A stretch of DNA of 64,000 nt from Kineosporia succinea (GCF_030811555.1 NZ_JAUSQZ010000001.1:6693241-6757240); one strand, 5' to 3'; shown: positions 28,624 to 54,708, counted from the first letter of the stretch. Numbers and translations: made by a program. Notes: a model not told the origin generated them from the sequence alone.

Positions 28624-29874
28624 GTGCCCATAGTTGTGGTCTACGACAAGGGATCGGCCGCTCCCGGCGAGATCATCGCGAGTCTCGCCGACGACGACGG
28701 CCTGGTGATCGTGCTCGCTGACACGGAGACGGCCCGCAACGCCCGGGTCGTCTTCGAGTCGTGCAGCCGGGCCGTGCTGGACCTGAGCGATGCCGACCTC
28801 CCGGCTCGGCTGCGGGCTCTGGGCGTGACCGGAATCGTCACCTACAGCGAGCGGATGCTGCAGGCCACCGCGGATCTCGCGGACCGCTGCGCCCTGGCCT
28901 ACTCGCCGCCGCCGGCCGTGGCCGCCCTGACCGACAAGTCCGCGCAACGCGCCGCGCTGCGTGAGGGCGGCGCCGACGTCGTCGCGACGGCCGAGATCCG
29001 CTCGATCGACGACTATGCCTCTGCCCTGGCCCATGTCGGCGTTCCGGCCGTGATCAAACCGGCCCAGGGCGAGAGCAGCCGGAACACACTGCTGGTCCAC
29101 ACGGCCGACGAGGGCCGGCAGGCCGTCACCGACTACCTGACGGTCGAGAAGCGGCTGGTGATGGAGGAATTCCTCCGGGGAACGGCACCGGAGGAACCCT
29201 ACGGCGACTACGTCTCGGTGGAGAGCGCCGTTCTCCCCTCGGGGCCGGTGCAGTACGCCATCACGGGAAAGTTCCGGCTCGCCCCACCGTTCCGCGAATC
29301 CGGGCAGTTCTGGCCGGCCCGGCTCGACGACGACTTGGCCGCGGAGGTGAGCCGGCTGGCCGGCTCGGCCATCACCGCGCTCGGGATGACCACGGGGCTG
29401 GCTCACACCGAGATCAAGCTGACCGCGGACGGTCCGCGCATCATCGAGGTCAACGGGCGTCTGGGCGGCCTGCAGCCGGACCTGGCAGCGCGGGCCACCG
29501 GGCTCGACACCATCCGCCTGGGCGCTGACATCGCTCTCGGCCGGCCGGTCGAGCTGGCACCGGTACGCCCCGACCGGGTGTACTTCCAGCTCTTCACCCC
29601 CGGACCGACCACGAACGGGTTCCTCCGGCGGAGCTGGGGTGGGCGTGAGGCTCTGGCCCTGCCCGGGGTCACCGCCTACCGGGCCTACGCCCGGCCGGGC
29701 ACCGTGGTCGGCGGCACCTCGAGCAACTGGCTCGATCTCACCTGCGGTGTCGTGGACAGCCACGCGGAGCTGCCCGCGCTCGTCCGGGCCGTGACGCAGG
29801 TGCTGCACTACGAGTTCGACATCGTCGGCACCAGCGTCGTGCGTACCGCAGCCGACCTGCTCGTCAACCCGTGA
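28624..29874 (+). CDS. ATP-grasp ligase at the edge of the biosynthetic cluster
   Basis: 416 residues from GTG 28624, eight bases after AAGGTGG. The ATP-grasp core is clear: VPAVIKPAQGESSRNT (Lys and glycine-rich loop), LVMEEFLRG, GDYVSVESAV, then AHTEIKLTADGPRIIEVNGRLGG with the metal-binding E and N. Enzymes of this type join a carboxylate, as acyl phosphate, to an amine. It is paralogous to the cluster gene at 37905-39236 (GDYVSVESA, ITGK and HTEIKL blocks shared). In dapdiamide-type pathways such ligases form amides with diaminopropionate, so a similar role is likely. It is the only cluster gene on the plus strand and converges on the operon end. Confidence 0.85.
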   Translation: MPIVVVYDKGSAAPGEIIASLADDDGLVIVLADTETARNARVVFESCSRAVLDLSDADLPARLRALGVTGIVTYSERMLQATADLADRCALAYSPPPAVAALTDKSAQRAALREGGADVVATAEIRSIDDYASALAHVGVPAVIKPAQGESSRNTLLVHTADEGRQAVTDYLTVEKRLVMEEFLRGTAPEEPYGDYVSVESAVLPSGPVQYAITGKFRLAPPFRESGQFWPARLDDDLAAEVSRLAGSAITALGMTTGLAHTEIKLTADGPRIIEVNGRLGGLQPDLAARATGLDTIRLGADIALGRPVELAPVRPDRVYFQLFTPGPTTNGFLRRSWGGREALALPGVTAYRAYARPGTVVGGTSSNWLDLTCGVVDSHAELPALVRAVTQVLHYEFDIVGTSVVRTAADLLVNP

Positions 29875-29880
29875 CCCGGC

Positions 29881-29914: not shown

Positions 29915-29923
29915 CAGCCACTG

Positions 29924-31465
29924 TCAGGCCGGAACTGATCCGCCGGCCCGCACCGCAGCCTCCAGGGCGGTGCGGTCGATCTTGTCGGTCGAGGTCCGGG
30001 GCAGCGTCTCGAAGAACTCGAAGCGGTCCGGAATCATGTACCGCGGCAGCCTGTCCCGGCAGGAGCGGGCCAGGCCGGGCGGCGCGGCCGGGGCGCTCAG
30101 CACCAGACAGGCGACGAGCCGGTTGGTCACCAGCTCGTCGGGAACCGCGATCACCGCGCACTCGGTAACCGCTGGATGCCGGTACAGCGCGGCCTCGATC
30201 TCGGCGAGCTCCACCCGGTAGCCGCGGGTCTTGACCTGGTGGTCGCGCCGCCCCAGGAAGACAAGCTCACCGTCGGCGTTGCGCCGGACGATGTCACCGG
30301 TGCGGTAGGCCGGCGCGCCGGCCGGGTTCCGGACGAGCGCCCGGGCCGTGCGGTCCGGATCGCCCCAGTAGCCGCGCATCACGGTCGGGCCGCTGATCAG
30401 CAGCTCACCGGATTGCCCGGCCGCGACCAGGCGGCCGTCGTCGCCCACGACAACTGCCGTGGTGCCGGCGATGGGCCGGCCGATCGGTACCGGGGTGTCC
30501 GAGGACGGCGGCCGGGTCACGTCGTACCAGGTGCAGACGTTCGTCTCGGTCGGCCCGTAGAGGTTCACGAAACGGGCGTGGGGCACGCCGGCCATCAGGG
30601 ACCGCAAGGCCGGGGCCGGGAAGACCTCACCCGCGAAGAGCACGACCCGAAGCTGCGGGAAGCAGCCCGCGGTCAGGCTTCCCTGCCGGACCAGCAGCGT
30701 CAGGGCCGACGGCACCGAGTACCAGACGGTGACGCGGGCGTCCTCGATGAACTGCGCGAGATCGACCGGGAAGACCAGAGCCTTCACCGGCACCAGGACC
30801 ACTGCGGCACCGGCGTACGCGGCCGCGTACAGGTCGAAGATCGACAGGTCGAAGTGCAACGGGGCATGGCTGGAGAGCCGGTCGTGCGCAGAGAGGTCCA
30901 GTTCCTGCGCCGCCCACTCGACGAAGGCGAGCCCGTTGCCGTGGGTCAGGGTGACGCCCTTGGGCGACCCGGACGACCCGGACGTGTAGAGCACATAGGC
31001 GAGGTCGTCGGGTCCCGTCCGCGGCAGCGGCACCTCCGGCCCCGCCGGCTCCGCTGTCGGGGCGCTGAGGTCCGCCACCAGCACGGTGAACAGACCCGGC
31101 AGATCGGCCAGCGCACCGGCGGACCCACGGGCGTCGGTCACGAGAGCGCTGATACCGCAGTCGGTGGCGATACCCCGCAGCCGCGCGACCGGCGCCTGGG
31201 GATCCAGGGGAACGTAGCCGGCACCGGCCTTGAGAATCCCGTACACCCCCGCGACGGCCTCGGCCGACTTGGGCAGGTGGATGCCGACCCGGTCACCCCG
31301 GCGGACGCCGGCCGCGACCAGCCGCGCGGCGATCCGGTCCGACGCCGCGTCCAGTTCGGCGTAGCTGACCGGCCGGGCACCGTCGACCACCGCCGGCCGG
31401 TCCGGGTACCGGGCGGCCGAGCGCCGCAGCAGGTCGGGCAGCGAGCGTGGGGCCGGGGCGGTCAC
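29924..31465 (-). CDS. stand-alone adenylation enzyme, prolyl-AMP ligase type
   Basis: 513 residues from GTG 31465 (GTGA overlap with the carrier gene). A complete A domain: YTSGSSGSPKGV (A3), LYGPTET (A5), GELLISG, YRTGDIV (A7), FLGRRDHQVKTRGYRVE (A8) and TSTDKIDR (A10, Lys). The specificity residues read by alignment to GrsA are D-L-F-Y-L-A-L-V-C. To my recollection this is the pattern of proline-activating enzymes of the PltF/RedM type. The context fits: next to it are a free carrier protein and an acyl-CoA-dehydrogenase-like protein, the trio that converts proline to pyrrole-2-carboxyl-S-carrier. Substrate is a strong inference. Confidence 0.85.
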   Translation of the reverse strand: MTAPAPRSLPDLLRRSAARYPDRPAVVDGARPVSYAELDAASDRIAARLVAAGVRRGDRVGIHLPKSAEAVAGVYGILKAGAGYVPLDPQAPVARLRGIATDCGISALVTDARGSAGALADLPGLFTVLVADLSAPTAEPAGPEVPLPRTGPDDLAYVLYTSGSSGSPKGVTLTHGNGLAFVEWAAQELDLSAHDRLSSHAPLHFDLSIFDLYAAAYAGAAVVLVPVKALVFPVDLAQFIEDARVTVWYSVPSALTLLVRQGSLTAGCFPQLRVVLFAGEVFPAPALRSLMAGVPHARFVNLYGPTETNVCTWYDVTRPPSSDTPVPIGRPIAGTTAVVVGDDGRLVAAGQSGELLISGPTVMRGYWGDPDRTARALVRNPAGAPAYRTGDIVRRNADGELVFLGRRDHQVKTRGYRVELAEIEAALYRHPAVTECAVIAVPDELVTNRLVACLVLSAPAAPPGLARSCRDRLPRYMIPDRFEFFETLPRTSTDKIDRTALEAAVRAGGSVPA

Positions 31466-31725
31466 GCGCTCGCACCCCGGCGGACGAAAGCCTCGATCGC
31501 CGAGAGGGTCTCGAAGTTGGCCGCGACCAGATCCATCTCCTGGACCGCGATCCGGTATTCGCTGGCGATCCAGTGGGCGACCTCGGGCAGGCTCAGCGAG
31601 TCGATCACGCCGGCCTGGATGAGAGACGTGTCGTCGGTGAGTTCCTCGGCCGTTCCCGGCCATTCGAGCTCTTCCATGATGAAGGTGCGCACAGCGTCCT
31701 TGACGTTCGTCGTGTCGACGGGCAT
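31462..31725 (-). CDS. stand-alone acyl/peptidyl carrier protein
   Basis: 87 residues. The phosphopantetheine attachment site is Ser43 in AGVIDSLSL, with acidic helix 1 and helix 2 flanks typical of carrier proteins. It lies between the dehydrogenase and the adenylation gene, 17 bases after the first and overlapping the second by 4. It should carry the prolyl and then the pyrrolyl group during oxidation, as PltL or RedO do. Intact. Confidence 0.88.
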   Translation of the reverse strand: MPVDTTNVKDAVRTFIMEELEWPGTAEELTDDTSLIQAGVIDSLSLPEVAHWIASEYRIAVQEMDLVAANFETLSAIEAFVRRGASA

Positions 31726-31742: not shown

Positions 31743-32909
31743 TCAGCGGCGGGCGCCGCGGGAAGTGAGCCCCATCTGGTGGGCGGCCAGACTGCGCTGG
31801 ATCTCGGACGTTCCCGAGTACAGCCGGCCGGCCAGCGAATCGCGGAGGTCGCGCTCGATCTCGTACTCGGTGGTGAAGCCGTAACCGCCGTGCACCTGAA
31901 CGGCGTCCAGGCCGGACTGCACGAAACTCTCACTGACGAACACCTTCGCCAGGGCGGCCTCCACCTGGGTGGGCCGGTCCCGGTCGATCAGCCAGGCCAG
32001 CCGGTACAGCAGCAGACGGGAGGCCTCCAGCCGCATCCGCATGTCCACGATCCGGTGCGAGACGGCCTGGTACCCACCGATCGCCTGACCACCCTGTCTG
32101 CGGGTTCGGGCGTGGCTGACACATCGCTCGAGGTCGCGGCGCATGGTGCCGAGAGCGGTCCCGAGGATGAAACTCCGCTCACGCTCCATCGTCCAGGTGA
32201 AGACGGCCGCGCCGGCGCCCTCCCGGCCGAGCAGCGCGGAGGCCGGAACCGGGCAATGGTCCAGGATCACCTCGGCCATCGGCGAGGTGCGCAACCCGGA
32301 CTTGCCGATCGCCGGCGAGACGCTCAGGCCCGGGGTCTCCCGGTCCACCAGGAAGGCGCTCACGCCGGAGAAGCCCCGACGGTCGGGGTCGACGGCGAAG
32401 ACCACGAACAGATCGGCGACGGGCGCGTTGGAGACGAAGGTCTTCGTCCCGTTGAGCACGTACCGGTCGCCGACGCGAGCGGCGGTGGTGGACATCGCGA
32501 ACGCGTCCGACCCGGAGCCGGGCTCTGACATGGCGTGCGCGGCGATGAGTTCGCCCTTCGCCATCGGCGGCAGGTACCGCGTCTTCTGCCCGGCGCTGCC
32601 GAACCGGACGATCGGGGAGACCCCGGCCCACAGATGCGCGTGCACCGAGAACAGCAAACCGTTGTCGCGGCAGCCGAATCCGACGGCCTCCAGGGCCGTC
32701 ATCATGGTGACCGCGTCCGCGTCGGCACCTCCGTACTCGGGCGGGATCGGAAGACCGAGCAGCCCCACCTCGGCGACCTTGCGCCAGCTCTCCCGGGAGA
32801 ACTCGCCCTCGTGGTCACGCCGTACCAGGTCGTCGTTGAGTTCCTTCTCGGCAAAGGTCTCCAGGACGGCGCAGAACTCACGTTGCTCGGGAGTCGGGTC
32901 GAAATCCAT
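31743..32909 (-). CDS. acyl-CoA-dehydrogenase-like flavoprotein, probable L-prolyl-carrier dehydrogenase
   Basis: 388 residues from ATG 32909. It covers the full acyl-CoA dehydrogenase fold: AMSEPGSGSDAFAM (flavin/substrate loop), TKTFVSNAPVADLFVV, GYQAVSHRIVDMRM, VQVHGGYGFTTEYEIERDLRD and LYSGTSEIQ. The glutamate found in medium-chain enzymes just before GTS is replaced by Ser, so the catalytic base must lie elsewhere, as in isovaleryl-type enzymes. The neighbouring prolyl-type A enzyme and carrier point to the four-electron oxidation of prolyl-S-carrier to pyrrole-2-carboxyl-S-carrier (PltE/RedW type). The start is 5 bases after the stop of the preceding synthase gene. Confidence 0.85.
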   Translation of the reverse strand: MDFDPTPEQREFCAVLETFAEKELNDDLVRRDHEGEFSRESWRKVAEVGLLGLPIPPEYGGADADAVTMMTALEAVGFGCRDNGLLFSVHAHLWAGVSPIVRFGSAGQKTRYLPPMAKGELIAAHAMSEPGSGSDAFAMSTTAARVGDRYVLNGTKTFVSNAPVADLFVVFAVDPDRRGFSGVSAFLVDRETPGLSVSPAIGKSGLRTSPMAEVILDHCPVPASALLGREGAGAAVFTWTMERERSFILGTALGTMRRDLERCVSHARTRRQGGQAIGGYQAVSHRIVDMRMRLEASRLLLYRLAWLIDRDRPTQVEAALAKVFVSESFVQSGLDAVQVHGGYGFTTEYEIERDLRDSLAGRLYSGTSEIQRSLAAHQMGLTSRGARR

Positions 32910-32914
32910 CGGGC

Positions 32915-34102
32915 TCAGAACCCGAACTTCGTCTTGGCCTCGGTGAGCGCGCCGACCAGGTGGTCGAGTTCGTCCTGGGTGTGACGGCTGGAGACGCCGA
33001 CCCGGAGCCGGCCCGAACCGGCCGGCACGTGCGGGTAGACGAACGGTGCGACGATGAGTCCCTGCCCCATCAGCCATTTCGCCACACTGACGGTGCGGTC
33101 CTCGTCGCCGACCAGCACCGGCACGATGTGGCTACGCGTGTTGATCAGGTCGAGTCCGGCCTCCCGCAGCGCCGCGGTGAGCTTTTCGGTGTTGGCCACC
33201 AGACGCGCCCGCAGCTCGTCCCCCTGCCGCTCCAGCAGGTCCAGGGACGCGAGGGTCGCGCCCGCCACGGCCGGCGCCGAGCCCCGCGACGAGGTGTAGG
33301 AGGCGGACATGTAGCGCAGCTGCCGCTCGAACCAGTCGTGGGTCAGCACGAAACCGCCGATGCTGCCCAGGGTCTTGCTCATCGTGCCGACCAGGACGTC
33401 GATCTTGTCGAGCACCCCGAAATGCTCGGCCACACCGAGTCCGCTGGGGCCGATCGAACCGAACGAGTGGGCCTCGTCGACGACGACCTTGGCGTCGTAG
33501 GCCTCGGCCAGTTCGACGATCCGGTCGAGCGGCGCGTAGTCACCGTCCGCGCTGTACAGGCCGTCGACCACGATCACCCGGCGACGCTTGTCACCGGTCT
33601 GCTTGAGCAGCGTCTCCAGCCGCTTGGTGCTGTTGTGCGGAAACGTGCGCACCTCCGCGCCCGACAGCCGGCTGCCCATGAACAGCGAGCTGTGGGACAG
33701 CCGGTCGTTGATGACGACGTCCTCGGGTCCGGCGAGCGCCGACACTGATCCGGCTGAGGCCGACATGCCGGACGGGAACATGATGGCCGCGCGCCCGCCG
33801 GACATCTTGCGCAGCTTCTCCTCCACCGAGTGGTGGATCCGGGTGTGACCGCAGATGAGCTGGGACGCGTAGGTGTTGGTGCCGAAGCGCTCGATCGCCT
33901 CGATCGCGGCGCGCTTGAGTTCGGGGCGCTGCGACAGGCCGAGGTAGTCGCAGGAGCCGAACATGGTCAGCTCACCGTGCGGCTCGATGGTGACGGTGTT
34001 GGCCTGGTTCGACTCCACGATCGGGAAGAAGGGCGAGACGCCCTCCTGCTCCCAGCGCAGGTAGCTGTCGTCGAGCGCGGTCAGGTCGGCTTTCATGGCC
34101 AC
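32915..34102 (-). CDS. alpha-oxoamine synthase family PLP enzyme
   Basis: 395 residues from GTG 34102, five bases after AGGAG (ATG 34096 is a close alternative). The fold-type I signature is clear: FGSCDYLGL, HSLF-type HSSLFMGSRLSGA, VVDGLYSADGDYAPL, VVDEAHSFGSIG (cofactor Asp and His) and GTMSKTLGSIGG with the PLP lysine near 243. Family members condense an acyl thioester with an amino acid, losing CO2, to give an alpha-aminoketone (KBL, BioF, ALAS). Here the likely acyl donor is the pyrrole-2-carboxyl-carrier made by the three following genes, giving a pyrrolyl aminoketone. The amino acid partner is unknown. There is no fused carrier domain, unlike PigH of prodigiosin synthesis. Confidence 0.85.
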   Translation of the reverse strand: MAMKADLTALDDSYLRWEQEGVSPFFPIVESNQANTVTIEPHGELTMFGSCDYLGLSQRPELKRAAIEAIERFGTNTYASQLICGHTRIHHSVEEKLRKMSGGRAAIMFPSGMSASAGSVSALAGPEDVVINDRLSHSSLFMGSRLSGAEVRTFPHNSTKRLETLLKQTGDKRRRVIVVDGLYSADGDYAPLDRIVELAEAYDAKVVVDEAHSFGSIGPSGLGVAEHFGVLDKIDVLVGTMSKTLGSIGGFVLTHDWFERQLRYMSASYTSSRGSAPAVAGATLASLDLLERQGDELRARLVANTEKLTAALREAGLDLINTRSHIVPVLVGDEDRTVSVAKWLMGQGLIVAPFVYPHVPAGSGRLRVGVSSRHTQDELDHLVGALTEAKTKFGF

Positions 34103-34228: not shown

Positions 34229-35230
34229 TCACCAGCGGGTGGTCTCCCCGAAGAAGTCCGGCACGGCGACGGCGGTCCCGGCCGTGCGTGCCTGCTGCAC
34301 GACGTAGGCGCCGACGGCGATGTCGAGCACGCCGAGGCCGAACGGGGAGAACACGATCGGCCGGTCCTGTTCGACGGCCAGGTCACCGGCCAGGACGTCG
34401 GCGAGGGTTCCGTCGACGAAGTCCCGGTTGCCGGTCAGTTGCTCGGTCAGGTGTGGCGAGGTGTTCGCCTTGAGGCAGTGCTCGACGTCGTCGAGGACGT
34501 TGTGGGCGGCGCTCAGCACCTCGGGAGCCAGGTCACGCAGGGAGATGTTGAGCACGAGCTGCCCGGCCGTGAACGGGGTGGTGACGTACGGTTCCAGGGC
34601 TGTGGTGGCGAGGACGACCGTCTCCGCGGCGAGTGCGTCGGCCAGGTCGGGGGTGACCGTGACCGGCCGGCCGATGCTCTTCCGGACGTGCTCCGCCAGG
34701 GCTGCGGCGGCCACCGGGTCGATGTCGTGCACGACGTAGCTGTCCGGGGCGCAGCCCGCTGCCTCGAGGAAGTCGCAGATGTTGCGGGCGATGATCCCGG
34801 CTCCCACCACGGCGATCCGGGTTCCCTGGTAGCCGGAGGGGCGCAGCGCGGCGGCGGCCAGGGCCGCCGAGGCGGCGGTTCGTGCGGAGCTGATCGTGGC
34901 CGCCTCGAGACAGGCCACCGGGTATCCGGTGACGTAGTCGTTGAGAACCAGGACCGCGGAGGCACGGGGAACACCGGAGCGGATGTTGGCCGGGAAGCTC
35001 GCGATCCACTTCAGGCCGGCCAGTTGCACGTCTCCTCCGACGTAGGCGGGCAGGGCGATGATGCGGGAGTCCGGCTTTTCCGGGAACCGCAGGAAGTAGC
35101 TGTCGGGATTGATCGTCCCGCCGTCCCGGTGCAGGAGGTAGGTCTCGCGCACCAGGTCGAGCACGTCGGTGCGGCCGGCTTCGATGACGGGGCGCACGGC
35201 GCTCCCGGGGACCACGTCGAACGAGAACAC
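34229..35230 (-). CDS. sbnB: SbnB-like dehydrogenase of 2,3-diaminopropionate synthesis
   Basis: 333 residues, of the ornithine cyclodeaminase/mu-crystallin fold. The NAD-binding VVGAGIIARNICDFL motif and the family segment AGLKWIASFPAN are both present. In staphyloferrin B and related pathways SbnB oxidises N-(2-amino-2-carboxyethyl)-L-glutamate with NAD, releasing L-2,3-diaminopropionate and 2-oxoglutarate. It follows the sbnA homologue by 36 bases, the usual pairing. This strongly predicts diaminopropionate as a building block of the cluster product. The start at GTG 35230 has only a modest AAGGA site ten bases upstream. Confidence 0.9.
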   Translation of the reverse strand: MFSFDVVPGSAVRPVIEAGRTDVLDLVRETYLLHRDGGTINPDSYFLRFPEKPDSRIIALPAYVGGDVQLAGLKWIASFPANIRSGVPRASAVLVLNDYVTGYPVACLEAATISSARTAASAALAAAALRPSGYQGTRIAVVGAGIIARNICDFLEAAGCAPDSYVVHDIDPVAAAALAEHVRKSIGRPVTVTPDLADALAAETVVLATTALEPYVTTPFTAGQLVLNISLRDLAPEVLSAAHNVLDDVEHCLKANTSPHLTEQLTGNRDFVDGTLADVLAGDLAVEQDRPIVFSPFGLGVLDIAVGAYVVQQARTAGTAVAVPDFFGETTRW

Positions 35231-35266: not shown

Positions 35267-36298
35267 TCAGGTCGTGGCCGGGGCCGCGGCCCGGGAGCGG
35301 GCGGTGCCCGGCATCGGCTCCAGGGCGGCCACGCCGAAGTGCTCGGCGACCCACTCGTCGTTGTAGACGGTGTCGAGGTAGCGGTCGCCCATGTCCGCCG
35401 AGATGCACATGCTGTTCAGCCGGCGGTCCGGGTCGTGGTGGTCCAGCCAGGTCAGCGCACCGCTGAGCACGGTTCCGGTGGAACCGCCGAAAAGCATGCC
35501 GTGCGAGGCGAGCAGGCGGCACACCTGGATCGTGTCGGCCTCCGAGACGGACACGGTGTCGGCGAAGAGGCCGAGCTCGAACATCGGTGGCGGGACGCTG
35601 GCGCCCAGGCCGGGGATCCGGCGGGGTGCCGAGGGGTGGCCGAAGGTCACGGAGCCCTCCGTGTCGATCGCCACCACCCGCGTCCGTGGTCGGCGGTCGC
35701 GCACGTACCGGCCGCAGCCGACCGCTGTCCCCCCGGTGCCCACTCCGACGAAAAGTACGTCCAGGTCGGGGAATCCGGTGAAGATCTCCCGGGCGGTGCT
35801 GTCGTAGTGGGCATCGCAGTTGGCCCCGTTGGTGTACTGGTTGAGCCACAGGTAGCGGGAGTCCCCGGCGCACAGCCGGGCGACCAGGTTCAGACGTGCC
35901 TGGAGGTAGCCACCGACCGGGTCGGGCTCGTCCACGACGACGAGCTCGGCCCCGAAAGCCCGCATGGCCGCGGCCGTGGTCGCGTTGCACCGGGAGTCGG
36001 TGACGCAGGTGAAGCGCAGGCCCTTGCTGGCCGCGATGATGCTGAGCGCCACCCCGAGGTTGCCCGACGACGACTCCACGAGGATCGTCTCGTCACGGAT
36101 CGACGAGGCCCGCTCGGCGGCCGCCACCATCGCGGCGGCCGCCCGCATCTTGATCGAGCCGCCGAAGTTCAGGCCCTCACACTTGAGGAACACCTGCCGC
36201 TCGACGATCGGCGCGAGGTCGACGTAGGTGTCGGCGCTGACGAGTTCGTGCGGTGAGCGCACGATTCTGGGGTTCGCCGAGCCCGGTCCGGCGCTCAC
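35267..36298 (-). CDS. sbnA: SbnA-like synthase of 2,3-diaminopropionate synthesis
   Basis: 343 residues, a fold-type II PLP enzyme of the cysteine synthase group. The PLP lysine is K50 in NFGGSIKMRAA; the substrate loop ESSSGNLGVALS and the phosphate-cradle VGTGGTAVGCGRY follow. SbnA joins O-phospho-L-serine and L-glutamate to N-(2-amino-2-carboxyethyl)-L-glutamate. Its GTG overlaps the stop of the PCP-C gene as GTGA and it is followed by the sbnB homologue. Together they supply L-2,3-diaminopropionate inside the cluster. Confidence 0.9.
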   Translation of the reverse strand: MSAGPGSANPRIVRSPHELVSADTYVDLAPIVERQVFLKCEGLNFGGSIKMRAAAAMVAAAERASSIRDETILVESSSGNLGVALSIIAASKGLRFTCVTDSRCNATTAAAMRAFGAELVVVDEPDPVGGYLQARLNLVARLCAGDSRYLWLNQYTNGANCDAHYDSTAREIFTGFPDLDVLFVGVGTGGTAVGCGRYVRDRRPRTRVVAIDTEGSVTFGHPSAPRRIPGLGASVPPPMFELGLFADTVSVSEADTIQVCRLLASHGMLFGGSTGTVLSGALTWLDHHDPDRRLNSMCISADMGDRYLDTVYNDEWVAEHFGVAALEPMPGTARSRAAAPATT

Positions 36299-39236: not shown

Positions 39237-39406
39237 CGGGTCGGCTCCGTGACCGGTCTCAGGTCGAGCCAGGTCGCGTCGACATGGTCGAGGCACGCCG
39301 CTTCGCTCCCGTCGAACCCGGCTGACCGCCAGCCGGCCGGCAGCCGCCGGGCCCGGGGCCACACCGAGTACTGCCCCGCCGGATTGATCACCACGAGATG
39401 GGTCAC
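39233..39406 (-). CDS. MbtH-like protein
   Basis: 57 residues from GTG 39406, overlapping both neighbours by 4 bp. The conserved features are present: NPAGQYSVWP, LPAGW, CLDHVDATWLDLRP with the family tryptophans. MbtH-like proteins bind A domains and are needed for their folding or activity. It directly follows the A-PCP-E gene, so that A domain is its most likely partner. It is shorter than usual (60-75) because the N terminus is clipped. Confidence 0.9.
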   Translation of the reverse strand: MTHLVVINPAGQYSVWPRARRLPAGWRSAGFDGSEAACLDHVDATWLDLRPVTEPTR

Positions 39407-43194: not shown

Positions 43195-43198
43195 GAGA

Positions 43199-46100: not shown

Positions 46101-47059
46101 ATCTCGATCGGGTCACCGATGCGGGTGCCGGTGCCGTGAGCCTCCAGGTAGCCGACGGTGGCCGGGTCGACGTGGCTGTCGCGCCAGGCCGCCTCGATCA
46201 CCTCGGCCTGCGCGAGCGGACTCGGCGCGCTCAGGCCGCTGCTGCGCCCCGCGTCCTGGTTCAGCGCACCGCCCCGGAGGACCGCGTGCACCGTGTCACC
46301 GTCGGAGATCGCCTCCGGCAGGCGCTTCAGCAGGACGAACCCGCCACCCTCGCCGGCCACGATGCCGTCGGCGGCCGCGTCGAAGGGCCGGCACCGGCCG
46401 CTGGGCGAACCGACGCCCATCCCCTCGTTCGCGGCCGGCCGGGCCGGGATCTCCCCGAGGATCGCGGCGTACCCGCCGACCAGCGCGAGCCGGCCCGGCC
46501 CCTGCAGCAGTCCCGTGCGGGCCTGGTGCAGCGCCACCAGGAACGACGAGCAGGCGGTGTCGACCACGGTGGCAGGCCCGCGCAGGTCGAGATGGTAGGC
46601 GATGCGCCCGGCCGCGTTCGCGGGCAGGCTGCCCGCGAACGCCCGGCCCGAACTGCGGTGCGGCTCGGCCAGCAGATGCACCAGGCTGGGCAGGATGCCG
46701 CAGTACCCGGCCACCACCACCGCGGCGTCACTGCCGCGCAGTTCGGCCGCCGAGTACCCGGCGTTCTCCAGGGCGGCCACCGCGAGGGTCAGCATGCGCC
46801 GCTGGCGCGGGTCGATCAGCTCGGCCTCGGCCCTGGGCAGGCCGAAACCCCGATGGTCGAACACCCCGATCTCCGGCTGCCAGCACCCGTCACCGTCGGC
46901 CTCGGAGCGCGTCAGGCCCATCGCGGCCGCCCGTTCGGCCGGGTAGGGCCCCACCTGGTCGCGGCCCGCGGCGAGGACCTCGACGAGGCTGTCCCAGTCG
47001 CTACTGCCGGGCAGCTCGAAGGAGACCCCGATCACCGCGACGGCGTCGTCGTCGTTCAC
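43199..47059 (-). CDS. hybrid PKS-NRPS protein: ketosynthase, dead AT remnant, carrier, condensation
   Basis: 1286 residues from GTG 47059 (GTGA overlap). The KS triad is complete: Cys near 169 (VDTACSS), His near 306 (EAHGTGT) and His near 342 (KANLGHL). After the KS-AT linker there is a shortened AT-like region of about 215 residues instead of about 300: the nucleophile motif GHSxG reads AHGTG (near 585) and the first motif reads LLGTAG. It therefore cannot load an extender itself. The post-AT linker (YVQGHDLDWA, near 680) remains. A carrier (ARGGDSLSG, Ser near 783) and a condensation domain (FHHLFFDG, near 983; GCFVNTVPVR) follow. A chain-extension step with a trans-acting AT, or a KS used without extension, must be assumed. 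Confidence 0.88.
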   Translation of the reverse strand: MNDDDAVAVIGVSFELPGSSDWDSLVEVLAAGRDQVGPYPAERAAAMGLTRSEADGDGCWQPEIGVFDHRGFGLPRAEAELIDPRQRRMLTLAVAALENAGYSAAELRGSDAAVVVAGYCGILPSLVHLLAEPHRSSGRAFAGSLPANAAGRIAYHLDLRGPATVVDTACSSFLVALHQARTGLLQGPGRLALVGGYAAILGEIPARPAANEGMGVGSPSGRCRPFDAAADGIVAGEGGGFVLLKRLPEAISDGDTVHAVLRGGALNQDAGRSSGLSAPSPLAQAEVIEAAWRDSHVDPATVGYLEAHGTGTRIGDPIEMQALAHTYGRVEPDDGRRLVSSVKANLGHLDAMAGLAGLVRIIAQFRAGQIFPTANFRAVNPLIELGDAALEVADRTVPWTASSPRRAGLSSFGLSGTNAHLIVEEGPRVVAPGGSGQPRPVLLSAPGRDGLRRLAEQLHRTLGERECDLDAVAGVLSGGRQHFAHRHAWVATGIGDLREQIAGTLRGTPDRGTTPEPVVILLGTAGENSGSPEDLAVHPAAAAVLAEARACVPRGTWSAAQRNLLVGVAGYAAVRALEVPIDLVLAHGTGVLVRRHAEGHISLADALEHVASEPVASEPGASEPGVPEPVRLRAALDRFGGAVTLIDLTPGSALSLAASAAGSPHTVTVSLPDAFARLYVQGHDLDWAAGLGRPARRVELPGTPREEAPCWPEIEPADTRPVAAPPARAEPVAEAGAGPDIGPDIGPEIGPDIGSDIGSEVVRIAAEVLKEPVTENDDFFARGGDSLSGVVLVSMLNERFGTDLEVLDLFDFTDLRELADHLRPTSETTPARQLPDAAPRSWPLSGQQTAIWAAGALDGESDAYHVPAVFRLHGPVDETWLAVTLQQIVAGHDMLRCTLTDTHDGPRQVVAAAPHPAQALRRIEIDLSTETEEQARATLNARLATLIAEPLDPHNRPPTRFQLIRVRYRDAEREYLTLTFHHLFFDGSSWALVMDELAGLRPPVTHRSYLDHVASQREMLDGARGERLRAFWTDYLASASPGRLPHDHRPAHLVMTGASLAARLGAEPAAALQGLADRARCSLNMVVLAAWALLVSRLGGADDICVAMPVANRAAGDEAIIGCFVNTVPVRVRSSGLATFADLLHQVRSSSLQAISHGDYPTDHILRTAPRTARGALADTMLGLHRADTPRRLGTGTVLEPVDIQQTDAQFPLEMTVLSGPTGLELSLRVAVALIEPSTAATWLESYRTLLHQLATGGPATPLNSLIGPPPGAPSTDVPEFVFGGE

Positions 47060-48852
47060 AGGTCGACCACCACCGGCGCCGGTCGCCCCTCGGGTCCGCC
47101 GCCGAGCCGGACGGCCAGATCCGCCACGGTCGGATGCGCGTACAGATCGGCCAGGGTGAAGTCCGGGAACCGCCTGCGCAGGCGGCCGAACACGGCAACC
47201 GCCTTGAACGACGTCCCACCCGACTCGACGAACCGGTCGTGCCGGCCCACCCGGGAGCTGCCGAGCACCTCGCACCAGATCTGGGCGACGAACTCCTCGA
47301 CCTCACCGACCGGTTCCTCACCGGCCGGCGGCCCGGAGGCCTCCCCGGCGACCAGCTCCCGCAGCGCGCCGTAGTCGGCCTTCCCGTTCATGGTGACCGG
47401 GATGTACGGCACCAGGTGCAACCGGCTGGGAATCAGCGCGGCGGGCAGACGTTCGAGAAGCCAGGCGACGATGTCGGAACTGCTCGCCGTGCCCACGACG
47501 TAGGCAGCCAGCTCCGGGGACGCCCCCGGCTCGGCCCGCTCGCCCCGGACCGTGGCCAGCCGGACCCCGGGAACGCCGAGCAGAGCGGTCTCCACCTCCC
47601 CGGGTTCCACCCGGTTGCCCCGGATCTTGAGCTGGTCGTCGGCCCGGCCGAGATAGTCGAACCGGCCCTCGGGAGAACGGATCACCAGGTCGTCGGTGCG
47701 GTACAGGCGTTCGCCGCCGACGGTGACGAACTTCTCGGCGGTCTTGACCGGATCGCCGCGGTACCCGGTGGCCAGACACTGACCCCCCAGATGGAGGACG
47801 CCGGTGGTCCCGTCCGCGACGGGCCGGTCCTCCTCGTCCAGCACCACGGTCCGGATCCTGGGCAGCGGGTAGCCGATCGGTACCCGCTCGGCGTGTCCGT
47901 CGGAGGCCTCGACCCGGTGCACGGTCGCCACGATCGTCGCCTCGGCCGGACCGTACCCGTTGTAGATCTCGATCGTGGGTGCCGCGGTGAAGATCGCCCG
48001 CACCAGGCGCGGCGGCAGCGCTTCCCCGATGAAGATCACCAGCCGCCGCGGCAGCAGGCCGGACAGCTCGCCGGCGCTCGCGAGCGTCTCCAGCAGTGAC
48101 GGGGTGAAGGTGACGACGTCGACCGGGTGCTGTGCGAGCTCCCCGGCCAGACGCAGCGGGTCGAGCGTCGTCTCCCGGTCGTAGATGTCCAGCCGGGCCC
48201 CGGACAGCAGGGCGCCGTAGATCGACGCCTTGCCGATGTCGGCGGCGAACGTGGTGGCGACACCGTAGGATCCGATGTCCCCCAGCTCGGCGGCCAGCCC
48301 GAAATACCCTGCGCAGTAGTTGATCAGCGCGTGGTGCGGCACCTCGACCGTCTTCGGCGTACCGGTGGACCCCGAGGTGAGGACCAGGTAGGCCGGGTCG
48401 GCTCCGCCCAGCCCGTCCGAGATCCGGTACGGGGCCAGCGGCGGCCGGTCGCCGAGGTCACGCACCAGCCAGTCGCCGTCGGCCCGGTCCCGATTGCGCG
48501 CGTCGGTCAGCACCGCCGCCGGCCGGACCGCGGCCAGGAGCACGGCGACCCGCGCCTGGGGGTCCGTCGGTTCCAGGTGCACGTAGGCGGCCCCGACGGC
48601 CCAGGTGGCGAGCACGGCCACGACGGCCTCGGGTGAGCGCTCGAGCAGCGTGGCCACCACATCGCCCCGGCCCACCCCGTGTGAACGCAGCTCGTCGGCG
48701 ATGCCCCCGGCCCGCTGTGCCAGCTCCTCGTAGGTCAGCTCCGTGCCCGCGTGACGCACGGCAGGGCGCGTCGGCACCGCCTCGGCCACCCGGGCGAAAG
48801 CGTCGGCCGTGGTGAGAGGTCCGGTCGGTGGAAGCAGGTCGATCACGGTCAC
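47056..48852 (-). CDS. NRPS protein: adenylation and carrier domains (A-PCP), atypical A domain
   Basis: 598 residues from GTG 48852 (GTGA overlap with the transporter stop). A domain: LTSGSTGTPKTV, GYGPAEA, YRTDDLVIR, YLGRADDQLKIRGNRVE, TMNGKADY. In the F-D-x-S segment the usual Asp235, which holds the alpha-amino group, is Ala (TTFAADIGKASIYG). Specificity residues read A-A-G-T-I-I-G-I-V. This points to a substrate without a standard alpha-amino group, for example a beta-amino, aryl or other acid. The carrier site is VESGGTSFKA (Ser near 546). The next gene is the KS protein, so this pair could feed a starter or extender acid to the ketosynthase. Confidence 0.87.
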   Translation of the reverse strand: MTVIDLLPPTGPLTTADAFARVAEAVPTRPAVRHAGTELTYEELAQRAGGIADELRSHGVGRGDVVATLLERSPEAVVAVLATWAVGAAYVHLEPTDPQARVAVLLAAVRPAAVLTDARNRDRADGDWLVRDLGDRPPLAPYRISDGLGGADPAYLVLTSGSTGTPKTVEVPHHALINYCAGYFGLAAELGDIGSYGVATTFAADIGKASIYGALLSGARLDIYDRETTLDPLRLAGELAQHPVDVVTFTPSLLETLASAGELSGLLPRRLVIFIGEALPPRLVRAIFTAAPTIEIYNGYGPAEATIVATVHRVEASDGHAERVPIGYPLPRIRTVVLDEEDRPVADGTTGVLHLGGQCLATGYRGDPVKTAEKFVTVGGERLYRTDDLVIRSPEGRFDYLGRADDQLKIRGNRVEPGEVETALLGVPGVRLATVRGERAEPGASPELAAYVVGTASSSDIVAWLLERLPAALIPSRLHLVPYIPVTMNGKADYGALRELVAGEASGPPAGEEPVGEVEEFVAQIWCEVLGSSRVGRHDRFVESGGTSFKAVAVFGRLRRRFPDFTLADLYAHPTVADLAVRLGGGPEGRPAPVVVDL

Positions 48853-50522
48853 TGGTCCTCCAGCAGGCGGTGTCCGGTGGGCCGGTCCACCGTGACCACA
48901 AGGTCGGCGGCGGCCAGCAGGTCGCGGTTGTGGGAGACGACCACCCAGGCGCCGGGCCAGGTGGCCGGCAGCGTTCGCCAGATGTGCTGTGCGGTCGCCT
49001 GGTCCAGGGAGGAGTCGCAGTCGTCGACCACGTAGAGCTGCGCCGGGTGGGCGAGCATCCGGGCCAGCGCGAGCCGCTGGCGCTGGCCGCCCGACATCTG
49101 GCCGGCCTCACCCGAATCCAGCACGGTCCGTGGTCCTTCGGGCAGGCCGCTCTCGCCGGTTCCCAGCCGGACGGCCTCGAGCACGGCGTTGACCTGACCG
49201 GAGCTCACCTCGGTCGAGCCCAGCCGCAGGTTGTCCAGAACGGGGCCCGCCAGGAACCGCGGCGACTGGCGGCTGAGCGAGACCATCGGCGTGTGCAGGG
49301 CACGGGGCCGGCCGACGAGTTCGATCCCGTTCCAGCGGACGCTGCCCCGGATGCCGGGCTGGGTTCCCAGCAGGCAGCGCACCAGAGTGCTCTTGCCGGT
49401 GCCGACCCCGCCGGTGATGACCACGAGCTGGCCGGGACGCACCGCGAAGGTGATGGGCTCGGGAGGTGCCGCCCCGGTGAGTGGCGGCGCGCAGGTGAGA
49501 TCGGTGACGACCAGTTCGGTCAGCGGTTCCAGGGCCCCGGGGTCACCGGTGCCGGCACCGACGGGCACGAGCTCGCCGAGCCGCCCGTACGAGACCCGGC
49601 CGCTCTGCAGGCGCGCCAGGATGTAGCCGAAGAAGTACATCTGCTCGCCCAGCCAGGCGATGTAGGTGAGGAAGAGAACCAGCTTGCCGATGGTGAAATC
49701 GCCGTCGGCGATACGGACACTCACGGTGAGCAGCACCACCGCGGTACCGACCACGACCGTGTTGCGGAAGAGGTCGCCCATCAGGTCGGTGAAGACCTGC
49801 TGGCGGACCTGCGCCCGGCGGCGCCGGTCGAACCGCCGCGTCAGGTCGCTCACCCGGCCCGGCATCAGCGCCGACAGGCGCAGGTCGCGCACCCCCGCCA
49901 GCAGGTCGGTCATGGCGGCGGAGATGTCCCCCTGATGCATGCGGGTTTCTTGCTGCAGGTCCCCCACCCGGCGCTTGAGGTACACCGAGGCCCACAGACC
50001 GCCGAGCAGCAGGATCAACGGCAGCGTGGTGATCACGTCGGTGCGCAGCAGCACCACCACAGCGATCAGCGTCAGCACCGACCGGTACACCAGGTCGGTG
50101 GTCCACTCCAGGAGCCCACCGATCTCGTCGGTGTCCTCGCGCAGCCGGTTCACCACGTCACCCGTGCGGAGTGCCGCGTCGGGCGGCACCGGCGCCCCCA
50201 GCACCGCGTTCAGCACCGAGACCTTGAGCCAGGAGCTGACCTGGAAGATCAGCGAGAAGGTGAGCGCCAGGCCACCCCACAGCAGCACTCCCCGCAGGAG
50301 CATCAACCCCACGGTGAGCCCCAGCAGGGACCAGGTGCGGCCGTCCACCCCGCCGTCGGCATCGTCGATGAGCTCGGCGATGACCAGCCCGACCGCGAGC
50401 GGAAGACCGTGGATCACCGCCCACAGGCCCATCGCGGCGACGTAGGTGAGCCTGATCCGGGCCCCGGCCCGGTGCAGGAAGGAGAAGAACCCGGCCGAGA
50501 GATCGGCGTCCGGGGCGGTCAC
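48849..50522 (-). CDS. ABC half-transporter with fused permease and ATPase, partner 2
   Basis: 557 residues from GTG 50522. About six membrane segments come first (for example LTYVAAMGLWAVIHGLPLAV and RSVLTLIAVVVLL), then the ATPase domain: Walker A GGVGTGKST, signature MSGGQRQRLALARML, Walker B LYVVDDCDSSLD and H-loop SHNRD. The catalytic Glu after Walker B is Asp, so this ATP site should be slow. It is coupled by GTGA to its partner upstream. The pair should form a heterodimeric exporter in the cytoplasmic membrane, most likely for the cluster product or an intermediate, giving self-protection. Confidence 0.88.
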   Translation of the reverse strand: MTAPDADLSAGFFSFLHRAGARIRLTYVAAMGLWAVIHGLPLAVGLVIAELIDDADGGVDGRTWSLLGLTVGLMLLRGVLLWGGLALTFSLIFQVSSWLKVSVLNAVLGAPVPPDAALRTGDVVNRLREDTDEIGGLLEWTTDLVYRSVLTLIAVVVLLRTDVITTLPLILLLGGLWASVYLKRRVGDLQQETRMHQGDISAAMTDLLAGVRDLRLSALMPGRVSDLTRRFDRRRRAQVRQQVFTDLMGDLFRNTVVVGTAVVLLTVSVRIADGDFTIGKLVLFLTYIAWLGEQMYFFGYILARLQSGRVSYGRLGELVPVGAGTGDPGALEPLTELVVTDLTCAPPLTGAAPPEPITFAVRPGQLVVITGGVGTGKSTLVRCLLGTQPGIRGSVRWNGIELVGRPRALHTPMVSLSRQSPRFLAGPVLDNLRLGSTEVSSGQVNAVLEAVRLGTGESGLPEGPRTVLDSGEAGQMSGGQRQRLALARMLAHPAQLYVVDDCDSSLDQATAQHIWRTLPATWPGAWVVVSHNRDLLAAADLVVTVDRPTGHRLLEDQ

Positions 50523-52258
50523 GACGTCGCTCCGGCGCGAGAGCTGAGAATCTCCGCGGTGTTTCCCGTCGCGGAGACGTCGACCCGCCCGTTCTCGAGG
50601 ACGAGGATCTGGTCCACCTGCGCGAGAGTGGACGTCCGGTGGGCCACCATGACGACCGTGCGGCCCGGCATGACCGCCTCGACCACCCGCGACCAGACGC
50701 GTTCCGTCTGCGGGTCGAGCCGCGACGTGCCCTCGTCGATGACCAGGAGGCCGCAGGGGCGCAGCAGCGCCCGGGCCCCCGCGAGCACCTGGATCTCCCC
50801 CTCGGAGAGCCCCCGGCCACCGGCGCCGACCCGGGTGTCCAGCCCCCCGGGCAGCGCGTTCACCCAGCCGGCCGCGTCGAGGCGCTCCAGCACGGCCAGG
50901 ACCTGCTCGGCCGGGACCGAGTCGTCGAACAGCGTGATGTTCTCGCGTACCGAGGCCGCGAACAGGTGAGCTCCCTGGCTCAGCACGGTCAGGTGCCGGG
51001 CCAGTTCCGCTTCCGTCAGTGTGGTGACGTCGACGCCACCGATCCGCACCAGGCCGCTTGCCGGCGCGGCCAGACCGCAGATCAGGTTGACCACGGTGCT
51101 CTTGCCGGCACCGGTCGGCCCCACGATGCCCAGGCTGGTGCCGGCCGGAACGTCGAAGGTCACGTCGTGCAGCACCGTCTCGTCGCCGTAGCCGAAGGTC
51201 ACGTGCTCGAAGGCGATCCCGGGGGATCCTTCTGGAAAGCGGGCCGAGGTCCTCGCACCGGCGCCCATCGGCGACTCGGCCAGGGTGCGCGCGCTCAGGC
51301 CGAGAACCGCGGCCATCTGCTGCAACTCGTCGGCCTGCGAGGAAACCTGCTCCAGCGGCTCCTGCAGCAGATCGACGTAGAGGTAGAGCATGGCCAGGGT
51401 CCCGATGGTGAGTCCGCCGGACCCCATCCGGTTCAGGCCGGCCCCGAGCACGAGGGCGAAGCTGATCGCGAAGAAGAGCTGGGTGGCCGGCCAGAACGTG
51501 CGACCGGCCAGATAGGCCCGTCGCTCCACGGCGAACAGCGCGTTCAGGCGGTGATCCGCCTGCTGGACCACCCACGCGGTGCCGTTCAGCGGCTGCACGT
51601 CGGACCGGGCCGCCAGAGCGTCACCGAGGAATCCGAACAACCGCGCCTGCTGCAGGCGGGCTGTCTCCCAGCGGGAGACGGCCCAGCGGCTGATCCGGGA
51701 GAAACCCGCGAACAGCCCGACAGCGAGCACGGCCAGCCCCAGGCCGGCCGCCGGCACGGTCACCAGCATCACCACGAGGATGCCCGCCGCCACCACCAGG
51801 TTTCCGATCATCGGGAAGACCGATTCGGAGACGGCCCGCCCGACGATGTCGGAATTGCCGTCGATCTGCTCCAGAACCTCTCCGGTCTGCCGGCGTTCCA
51901 CCTCGAGCACCGGTTCCTCGACCACCAGCCGCTGGAACAACCGTTCCCGCAGACGATCAGCGATCTGCCATCCGGTGCGCGCGGCCAGATATCCCGAGCC
52001 GATCCGGCCCCCGGTGCCGACGAGAGCGGCCAGCAGGTAGGCGACGGCCGTGCCGGCCAGCACGGCGGCGGTGGTACCGGCCGTGGCCCGGTCGACGAAG
52101 TGCCGGACCAGGAGCGGCCCGGCCAGGGCCGCGGCCGCCGAGATCAGCACCGCGAGAACGGCACCCACGCCGCTGCCCCACGCGGCCCGGAACTCCTGAC
52201 GCAGCAGAGCGGCGCCACCGCCGGCCGGTGTTCGGCCACTCGCAGGTTCGGGGTTCAT
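50519..52258 (-). CDS. ABC half-transporter with fused permease and ATPase, partner 1
   Basis: 579 residues from ATG 52258 (ATGA overlap with the NRPS gene before it). Membrane segments lie at about 30-280. The ATPase domain has Walker A GPTGAGKST, Walker B LLVIDEGTS with the catalytic Glu, and H-loop AHRTS. Its signature is LSEGEIQ instead of LSGGQ. In a heterodimer this degenerate signature faces the ATP site of partner 2, which has the weakened Walker B, so one site is inactive and the other complete, as in many heterodimeric exporters. Role: export of the cluster product by inference. Confidence 0.88.
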   Translation of the reverse strand: MNPEPASGRTPAGGGAALLRQEFRAAWGSGVGAVLAVLISAAAALAGPLLVRHFVDRATAGTTAAVLAGTAVAYLLAALVGTGGRIGSGYLAARTGWQIADRLRERLFQRLVVEEPVLEVERRQTGEVLEQIDGNSDIVGRAVSESVFPMIGNLVVAAGILVVMLVTVPAAGLGLAVLAVGLFAGFSRISRWAVSRWETARLQQARLFGFLGDALAARSDVQPLNGTAWVVQQADHRLNALFAVERRAYLAGRTFWPATQLFFAISFALVLGAGLNRMGSGGLTIGTLAMLYLYVDLLQEPLEQVSSQADELQQMAAVLGLSARTLAESPMGAGARTSARFPEGSPGIAFEHVTFGYGDETVLHDVTFDVPAGTSLGIVGPTGAGKSTVVNLICGLAAPASGLVRIGGVDVTTLTEAELARHLTVLSQGAHLFAASVRENITLFDDSVPAEQVLAVLERLDAAGWVNALPGGLDTRVGAGGRGLSEGEIQVLAGARALLRPCGLLVIDEGTSRLDPQTERVWSRVVEAVMPGRTVVMVAHRTSTLAQVDQILVLENGRVDVSATGNTAEILSSRAGATS

Positions 52259-54708
52259 CCGTTGACCGATCTTTCCGTCCCCCGCCGGGAGGCCGTGGCC
52301 AACCCGGCGAGGGCGCCGACCGATCGGTGCCCCCGGACGTCGACCGAGGTGAACACCTCCGGCATGACTCGTTGCAAGGCCTTCTTCACCCGTAGAGCAG
52401 CCAGCACCGGATCGGCGGCGCCGGAGAACAGGTCGTCGTGGTCGGCCACCGCGTGACCGAGGGCTTCCTGGACGGCGTGGCGGATCACGTCGATCGGCTC
52501 GGCGTCCGGCCCGCGCGCTGCCGGGGTGTCCCGGCCCCGGGACGTCCGAATCTGCTCGTCCCACTGACGCATCCGGCGCACGTCGGGTTTGCCGGTGACG
52601 GTCTGCGGCAACCGGGGCACGACCAGGAACCGGGCCGGCACGACCCGGGGGCCGAGAGCCTCGGCCAGGGTGCGCCGCCACGTCGCCGTGGACCGCGCAT
52701 CCGCCGGGGCCGCCGGAACGCCCTGCGGGCCCGGCGGATCCGTCTCGACGAACGCGACCAGCTGCACATGACCGGCCGGCAGCCGCACATCGACCACCTT
52801 GCACCGTCGCACGTCGTGGCTGCGGGACAGCACCGCCTCGACCTCGTCCAGGTTGATGCGGATGCCCCGGACCTTGACCTGCGCATCCCGGCGCCCGAGG
52901 TACCGCAGCTCACCGTCGGGACCGATCCGGCCGAAATCTCCCGTGTGATAGATGCTTTCACCGGTGGAGCCCGGCAACGGCCGGTAGCGGGCAGCGGTCT
53001 GCGCCTCGTCACCGACGTACCCGAGGGACAGGAAGCGGCTGGCGACACCGATCTCACCGACGGCGCCACGCGGCACCGGACGGCCCTCATCGTCCACCAG
53101 CACGATCCGGCGACCGGTGATCGGCCGGCCGATCGGCACCCGGCGGTGGGCCGGATGGTCGGCGACGACGCGATGACTGGTCGCGAGCACACACTCGGTG
53201 GGACCGAACATGTTGCGGACCCGGGCCGTTGCGAACACCGCGCGCATCCGCCCGCACAGCGCCGGCGGCAGCACCTCACCGGCCACGATGACGTCGGCGA
53301 GGTGGGGCAGCGCCCGCGGGTACGTCTCCAGCGCGGCCACCAGGTGCTCGACGAAGCTCGGGACCCCCTGGAAGAACGTGACTTTCGAGGATGACAGCCA
53401 TTCGGCGACCACCGCCGGGTCACGACGCCGGCCGACAGGTGGCAGGCAGAGCGTGGCCCCGTAGGCCAGCGCCCCGAAGACCTCCATGTAGCAGGCGTCG
53501 AAGACCGGCGCCGACCACATCGCCACCCGGGACCCCGGACCCAGCCCCAGTTCCTGCTGTTGCCAGGCCAGGAACTGGGCGAACCCGAGCCGCGACTGCA
53601 CGACCCCCTTGGGCCGGCCGGTCGTGCCCGAGGTGAACGCGATGTACGCGGCGCCCTCGTCCGCCGGGCGCCGCCGGCCCGGCGGCACCGCACTGCCGTC
53701 TACCCTGTCCGCCCGGTGTTCCCAGGCCGGCACCTCGGCCCGGGCCGCCAGAAGCCCAGCCGCATCCCGGGTGCCGGCGTCGTGCACGATCAGGCATCCG
53801 CCGCCCCCACGCACCAGAGCTGCGTTGCGATCCACCGCCACGGCCGGGTCGAGCACGAGCTGGCACCGGTCGGCCAGCTGGCAGGCGACCATCACGACGA
53901 CCGCGGTCAGCGTGTCGTCGGTCAGCACCGCCACCGGGCCGTCGCCGTGAAGGCGCAACCGCTGCGCCAGAGCACCGACCGCGCAGCCCAGTTCGGCGTA
54001 CGTGAGGATGGCGCCGTCAGCGGCGTCGACGGCCACGGCCGTCGGGGTCTCGGTGATCCAGTGCGCCACCGCGTCACCGGGCCGCAGCAGCGCGTCCGGC
54101 GCGGGGTCCGGTTCGGGAGGGACGAGCCAGGTCAGCGCTTCCTCCCAGCTCGGCCGCAGGATCTCGGCGATCGGCCGGTCAGGGCTCTCCGACACCGCTT
54201 CCACCACTGCGGCCAGGTACACGGCGATCTGCCGGGCGGTCGCGGACTCGTACACGTGGGCCGCGTAGTCCACCCGGACCTGACCGTCGAGGACGGCGAG
54301 CTGAATCTCTGCGGGTTCGCCGAGAGGCAGATCCGGCGCCAGGGCGATCCAGCAGCGCACGTCACCGGATCGCGCGCCGGCCCCCGAGACGTCCGCCCGG
54401 GCCTGGGCCAGTCTCCGTACCAGGTTGGCCGGGGTCTCCAAATCCTTCCGGCGAAGCACTAAATCGATGGTGCGGGCAGCATCTTCCCGCACCGCGACGA
54501 CCACCTCCGAACTACCGGAGAAGGCCGCACAGGTCACCACCGCCGCCACGACACCCAGCTCCTGGGAGATGGCACCGGCGAAGGTCGCGTACTCGGCCCG
54601 ATAACGACCAGGACCGTTCGCCAGGTAGTCACCGACCACGGATGTTATGTCGTACGGGTCTGTTTCAGACGTGATCAGGGCAGACTTCACCCCCTGCTCC
54701 TCAGACAT
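52255..54708 (-). CDS. NRPS protein: truncated C lobe, adenylation, carrier domain without serine
   Basis: 817 residues from ATG 54708, behind GAGGGG six bases upstream; first gene of the operon. Residues 1-200 resemble the C-terminal lobe of a condensation domain. The A domain (about 200-700) is complete: FTSGTTGRPKGV, MFGPTEC, YHTGDFGR, YLGRRDAQVKVRGIRI, TVTGKPDV (Lys present). Specificity residues by alignment to GrsA are D-A-M-Q-I-A-M-L-A; Asp235 is kept, so an alpha-amino acid is expected. The C-terminal carrier-like domain reads DDLFSGAADPVLAAL near 763: the serine of GGDSL is replaced by Pro, so no phosphopantetheine can be attached. The A domain must then load another carrier in trans, perhaps that of the KS protein or the PCP-C protein. 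Confidence 0.87.
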   Translation of the reverse strand: MSEEQGVKSALITSETDPYDITSVVGDYLANGPGRYRAEYATFAGAISQELGVVAAVVTCAAFSGSSEVVVAVREDAARTIDLVLRRKDLETPANLVRRLAQARADVSGAGARSGDVRCWIALAPDLPLGEPAEIQLAVLDGQVRVDYAAHVYESATARQIAVYLAAVVEAVSESPDRPIAEILRPSWEEALTWLVPPEPDPAPDALLRPGDAVAHWITETPTAVAVDAADGAILTYAELGCAVGALAQRLRLHGDGPVAVLTDDTLTAVVVMVACQLADRCQLVLDPAVAVDRNAALVRGGGGCLIVHDAGTRDAAGLLAARAEVPAWEHRADRVDGSAVPPGRRRPADEGAAYIAFTSGTTGRPKGVVQSRLGFAQFLAWQQQELGLGPGSRVAMWSAPVFDACYMEVFGALAYGATLCLPPVGRRRDPAVVAEWLSSSKVTFFQGVPSFVEHLVAALETYPRALPHLADVIVAGEVLPPALCGRMRAVFATARVRNMFGPTECVLATSHRVVADHPAHRRVPIGRPITGRRIVLVDDEGRPVPRGAVGEIGVASRFLSLGYVGDEAQTAARYRPLPGSTGESIYHTGDFGRIGPDGELRYLGRRDAQVKVRGIRINLDEVEAVLSRSHDVRRCKVVDVRLPAGHVQLVAFVETDPPGPQGVPAAPADARSTATWRRTLAEALGPRVVPARFLVVPRLPQTVTGKPDVRRMRQWDEQIRTSRGRDTPAARGPDAEPIDVIRHAVQEALGHAVADHDDLFSGAADPVLAALRVKKALQRVMPEVFTSVDVRGHRSVGALAGLATASRRGTERSVNG

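Follow-up and report, generated by a model that had tools for sequence, protein, structure and literature searches.

What does a block of genes make that brings together nonribosomal peptide synthetase (NRPS), polyketide synthase (PKS), diaminopropionate, pyrrole and ATP-grasp functions, and do these genes form one pathway? The question is raised by a 64,000-nucleotide stretch of Kineosporia succinea DNA (GCF_030811555.1, NZ_JAUSQZ010000001.1:6693241-6757240; hereafter the window, to which coordinates refer unless another record is named), which sits in a single-contig 8.07-Mb genome. Fifteen minus-strand genes at 29,924-54,708 are found again, 15 of 15 and with order and orientation kept, on the 1.8-Mb linear megaplasmid pCLA1/pSCL4 of Streptomyces clavuligerus ATCC 27064 (NZ_CP027859.1, about 286,000-311,400; locus L048). 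Since the gene order is repeated in full, the cluster is not a product of chance and represents a real conserved pathway: it is an orphan NRPS/PKS cluster family with at least two members. Domain content suggests that the 15 genes very probably build and export a peptide-polyketide that contains diaminopropionate (Dap) and a pyrrole derived from proline.

The S. clavuligerus copy was located by searching plasmids with the ATP-grasp and SbnB proteins (tblastn) and then comparing all window proteins; the record has no gene table for this region. Protein identity between the two copies is 49-81%, with the alpha-oxoamine synthase (AOS) best conserved (81%). In the alignment, catalytic motifs and nearly all pocket residues of the adenylation (A) domains are kept; the only changes are conservative ones in the protein consisting of an A domain and a peptidyl carrier protein (PCP) domain. 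Pfam and NCBIfam scans of the window proteins, from which domain content was taken, bear out the genes, domains and coordinates of the original prediction, a reading of the DNA alone. Its view of the locus as one coherent NRPS/PKS cluster is upheld by the colinear 15-gene block, and the doubt whether the two ends belong to unrelated loci is answered by their traveling together in that block. The genes are listed here in order of transcription, with condensation (C), epimerization (E), ketosynthase (KS) and acyltransferase (AT) domains abbreviated, pyridoxal phosphate given as PLP and percentages giving identity to S. clavuligerus; the convergent ATP-grasp gene is placed last.

52255..54708, minus strand: NRPS with C stub, A (DAMQIAMLAK) and a carrier-like domain without the phosphopantetheine Ser; 54%
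50519..52258, minus strand: ABC exporter half-transporter 2; 58%
48849..about 50525, minus strand: ABC exporter half-transporter 1, start codon approximate; 65%
47056..48852, minus strand: NRPS with A (DIATIIGIVK) and PCP (GGTS); 65%
43199..47059, minus strand: PKS/NRPS with KS (Cys-His-His intact), linker, AT relic without GHSxG, PCP and C; 51%
39403..43206, minus strand: NRPS with N-terminal C stub, A (DIWEITADDK, probably Dap), PCP and E; 54%
39233..39409, minus strand: MbtH-like protein, motif YSVWP...PAGW read; 49%
37905..39236, minus strand: ATP-grasp ligase 2, NRPS-associated subfamily, BacD-like; 60%
36295..37866, minus strand: PCP-C didomain without an A domain of its own, GGDSL and HHALLDG intact; 53%
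35267..36298, minus strand: SbnA, diaminopropionate biosynthesis PLP enzyme (TIGR03945); 68%
34229..35230, minus strand: SbnB, diaminopropionate biosynthesis dehydrogenase (TIGR03944); 70%
32915..34102, minus strand: free-standing PLP-dependent AOS, BioF/SPT/KBL superfamily; 81%, and 64% to Lentzea
31743..32909, minus strand: prolyl-carrier dehydrogenase, PigA/RedW-like acyl-CoA dehydrogenase (NF053553 and NF045652, below cut-off); 76%
31462..31725, minus strand: free-standing carrier (pyrrolyl carrier), PF00550, Ser in GVIDSLS; 61%
29924..31465, minus strand: stand-alone prolyl adenylation enzyme, A(Pro), pocket code DLFYLALVCK and PDB match; 64%
28612..29874, plus strand, convergent: ATP-grasp ligase 1, L-amino-acid-ligase type (Pfam/NCBIfam)

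Start and stop codons overlap between many neighbors, as in an operon. The whole set comprises four A domains, six carriers (one without Ser), two C, one E and one KS domain, MbtH, SbnA/SbnB, the AOS, the prolyl-to-pyrrole trio, two ATP-grasp ligases and an ABC pair.

By comparison with S. clavuligerus, the borders of the conserved unit are set at 29924-54708. The convergent ATP-grasp ligase 1, originally counted with the 15 genes, is left outside this unit because the S. clavuligerus cluster lacks a corresponding gene, and is probably accessory. It is 43% identical to ATP-grasp ligase 2 and 41-42% identical to the sole similar ATP-grasp of the S. clavuligerus cluster, which is the ligase 2 orthologue. 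On the other side, SnoaL and WYL genes (55260-56537) were considered as members and rejected as generic flank, the DNA from 55346 on being 81-87% identical in four other species of the genus. The cluster ATP-grasp was not found in these four species, which share the block right of 55346. In an empty-site comparison, the far side of the conserved block there differs in every relative. Beyond the absence of ligase 1, the S. clavuligerus cluster differs in what follows it directly: L048 26715-39800 carries a second SbnB/SbnA pair, A-PCP and C-A-PCP-thioesterase proteins, an ornithine-carbamoyltransferase-like enzyme and a distant ATP-grasp. This region may extend the first cluster or be a separate, second Dap NRPS cluster.

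The two proposed precursors are each represented by dedicated genes, in line with the original prediction. Both Dap models are above cut-off (SbnA, TIGR03945, 364.8 bits against 349.95; SbnB, TIGR03944, 388.8 bits against 326.9), which supports SbnA and SbnB as the predicted source of Dap. For the pyrrole, a stand-alone proline A domain, a free PCP with its active Ser and a dehydrogenase are all adjacent, as in a prolyl-to-pyrrole cassette. A(Pro) matches a PDB L-proline carrier-protein ligase at 367 bits, and its pocket code agrees with those of pyrrole-forming prolyl ligases. The best models of the dehydrogenase are PigA and RedW, though both are below their cut-offs (NF053553, 430 against 500 bits; NF045652, 427 against 650 bits). 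These matches support a predicted route from proline to pyrrole-2-carbonyl on the free carrier.

The assembly line itself, in which three A domains act in cis or trans alongside two C, one E and one KS domain, is a mixture of intact and incomplete domains. Pocket codes were read by aligning the four A domains by their core motifs, and a literature text search for the codes gave no match for any. DIWEITADDK, with its extra acidic positions, probably accommodates a diamino acid such as Dap. Five carriers have an intact Ser (GVIDSLS, CGGDSL, IGGDSI, RGGDSL and GGTSF); the sixth, in the 52255-54708 protein, reads GAADPVL, with Pro for Ser, and its S. clavuligerus counterpart, ALADNPL, has also lost the Ser. 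The KS triad is intact in both organisms (VDTACSS, EAHGTGT, NLGHLD/NFGHLD), and the GHSxGE position of the AT remnant reads AHGTGV and AHGAGA in the two genomes. In a profile search, the start of the linker in the KS protein matches the KS-AT linker in PKS structures (E = 7e-10) and its end a C-terminal PKS segment (1e-5). Before two of the A domains lies a segment that appears to be a C-terminal C-domain lobe; the similarity is weak (E of about 0.003 or below when sequences are compared singly), with the register right, and these stubs are probably truncated C domains reduced to that lobe. Neither the AT relic nor the truncated C domains were mentioned in the original prediction.

From these parts an order of assembly can be proposed. 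The DIWEITADDK domain would activate Dap, and the E domain that follows would convert it to D-Dap. The A-less PCP-C protein may have its PCP loaded in trans by the A domain that is paired with the dead carrier, and the C domain of the PCP-C protein would hand the residue to the A-PCP protein. A C2 unit would then be added by the KS, with malonyl supplied from elsewhere because the AT of the KS protein is a relic, and the C domain of the same protein would couple the chain to the Dap module, which has only a C stub of its own. The most speculative steps come last: the AOS may form a pyrrolyl aminoketone by decarboxylative joining of the pyrrolyl-carrier to Ala, Ser or Dap, and an ATP-grasp ligase or a C domain may attach this aminoketone to the peptide as a ketone-bearing end. 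The ABC pair would export the product. Pfam and NCBIfam scans find no thioesterase among the 15 genes, and release must therefore use another enzyme.

AOS enzymes join an amino acid to an acyl thioester with loss of CO2. The cluster enzyme (395 aa, not fused to a carrier) is similar to BioF, KBL, SPT and ALAS over its length, placing it in this fold-type I PLP superfamily; its best NCBIfam model is BioF (TIGR00858), at 340.6 bits against a cut-off of 426.45. Genomic context points both ways on pyrrolyl-S-carrier as the acyl donor. In both genomes the AOS gene adjoins the pyrrole trio, directly before it. In Lentzea kentuckyensis a 64% identical AOS (L041, 10001-11188) lies near an EamA transporter and a LysR regulator, without NRPS genes; none of the other cluster genes was found within 10 kb of it, and the Lentzea genome has no RedW-like or pyrrole-type dehydrogenase above 36% and no close PCP-C. 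Thus, this AOS subfamily can serve without a pyrrolyl-PCP, and the Lentzea enzyme may by itself produce a small aminoketone. These observations weigh against the pathway as proposed, as do three A-domain codes that match no substrate among those checked and an AT relic that leaves the source of the extender open.

The strongest alternative keeps a Dap- and pyrrole-containing peptide and takes the AOS off the pyrrolyl carrier. Here the enzyme would join an amino acid to the peptidyl or polyketidyl chain, or to an acyl-CoA or acyl carrier protein (ACP) thioester, releasing or priming it as an aminoketone, and the pyrrole would be an ordinary amide. The Lentzea homologue without pyrrole genes is consistent with this, as are BioF as the best model, a free-standing AOS rather than the ACP-fused form of TamD, and the need for some release enzyme where a thioesterase is missing. 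The co-conserved position of the AOS before the pyrrole trio argues the other way, and we consider this alternative possible, falling short of an even chance. Much less probable is a pair of adjacent pathways, one for an NRPS/PKS Dap peptide and one for an unrelated small pyrrole/AOS metabolite: the AOS and pyrrole genes are indeed grouped at the 3' end of the operon, but two distant genera share the whole 15-gene block in identical order, and stop and start codons are coupled, which speaks against such a division. That the cluster is decaying and non-functional, as four incomplete domains (dead carrier, AT relic, C stubs) might suggest, is very improbable. At 49-81% identity between the proteins, S. 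clavuligerus has those very domains in incomplete form too, with the remaining active sites intact. Because the losses recur in proteins that share only about 50% of their residues, they are ancestral features of the pathway rather than recent decay, and the rest has been kept under selection.

The reading preferred here, a single-operon hybrid peptide-polyketide cluster that includes the AOS route to a pyrrolyl aminoketone, is the best explanation as a whole, and we regard its chances as evenly balanced; for the AOS-pyrrole step by itself the balance is about even at best. In its full form, the proposal is rather less likely than not: a free-standing AOS would act on carrier-bound pyrrole-2-carbonyl to give a pyrrolyl alpha-aminoketone, which an ATP-grasp ligase or terminal C domain would join to a Dap polyketide-peptide made by a line with a permanently Ser-less carrier and an AT-less KS. 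If true, this would define a new class of ketone-ended pseudopeptide.

Further copies were sought by sampling. Sweeps for the AOS or the ATP-grasp in about 1,460 genomes gave no further copy of the cluster, a KS search of 248 genomes gave only generic KS matches, and a low-sensitivity scan of all genome contigs with a few exact peptide patterns found only the Lentzea AOS. Rarity is not proven by this, because the sweeps are samples and the all-contig scan used few exact patterns. Within S. clavuligerus, the cluster AOS (NZ_CP027859.1 289145-290329) is the only one on the plasmid at E <= 1e-60. Relatives of ATP-grasp ligase 2 adjoin NRPS/PKS genes in five of the six loci read, and this is therefore an NRPS-associated ligase family; in one of them (L081) the ligase is directly beside a PCP-C gene, repeating the pairing seen in the window. 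The nearest non-orthologous ATP-grasp (47%) belongs to an NRPS locus (L080, G845:C1:605000-624900) with an A domain, a KS and a PLP aminotransferase. The match of this KS to the window KS extends into the AT-relic region, possibly hinting at a wider family of AT-less KS/ATP-grasp clusters.

With the second copy, what was a curiosity of one genome becomes a conserved orphan pathway that can be tested and is present in an industrial organism, the clavulanic-acid producer S. clavuligerus. The original prediction had not recognized the combination as a described pathway. This does not hold for the combination itself, which occurs in identical set and order on pCLA1/pSCL4; it does hold for the product, as none is assigned to the S. 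clavuligerus copy in the portions of the S. clavuligerus literature searched. Nor was a CHARACTERISED cluster with the same gene set and order found in the portions of the literature searched. A plasmid-free S. clavuligerus strain has been described and compared with the wild type, and that report lists compounds lost with the plasmid, from a strain that also lacks a 303-kb chromosome end (PMC5702194); the list is a lead to the cluster and not a link. The product, if found, would show whether carrier-bound pyrrole can serve as an AOS substrate, and why two distant genera retain a Ser-less carrier domain.

Elsewhere in the window, two IS3-like copies (transposase orfA/orfB; 2972-4320 and 19287-20635), each 1,349 bp, 100% identical and inverted, surround about 15 kb in the manner of a composite transposon. 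Between them, at 8903-18994, lies a gene for a 3,363-aa protein that resembles polymorphic-toxin RHS proteins: it has many RHS repeats together with one laminin-G and one pretoxin HINT domain. Two adjacent small proteins (25773-26288 and 26488-27096) have putative peptidoglycan-binding domains.

Several known systems share parts of the cluster. Viomycin/capreomycin-type NRPSs likewise rely on genes for Dap supply and on in-trans loading of a PCP-C protein that has no A domain. The cluster differs in its KS, AOS and pyrrole genes, and no capreomycidine genes were found among the cluster genes scanned. Prodiginine and tambjamine pathways resemble it in forming a pyrrolyl-carrier with a prolyl-AMP ligase, a carrier and a dehydrogenase, and in having an AOS and a KS; unlike them, the cluster has an additional Dap/NRPS part and an AOS without a fused carrier, and no other prodiginine genes (MBC/MAP branch, carrier-fused AOS) were found among the genes scanned at 28-57 kb. 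The carrier-fused AOS TamD is a parallel for the AOS step (PMC4698589). For dynaplanin (dyn), an AOS-type reaction has been proposed in which an amino acid and an acyl thioester are joined with decarboxylation (PMC9239090), although with a CoA donor and arginine and no NRPS/PKS. The ketomemicin (ktm) pathway likewise has no NRPS/PKS, and the aldolase, dehydratase and amidinotransferase that accompany its C-acyltransferase were not found beside the AOS among the cluster genes scanned. However, in its logic of a C-acyltransferase (AOS) plus an ATP-grasp ligase (PMC11943689), ketomemicin biosynthesis is like the cluster.

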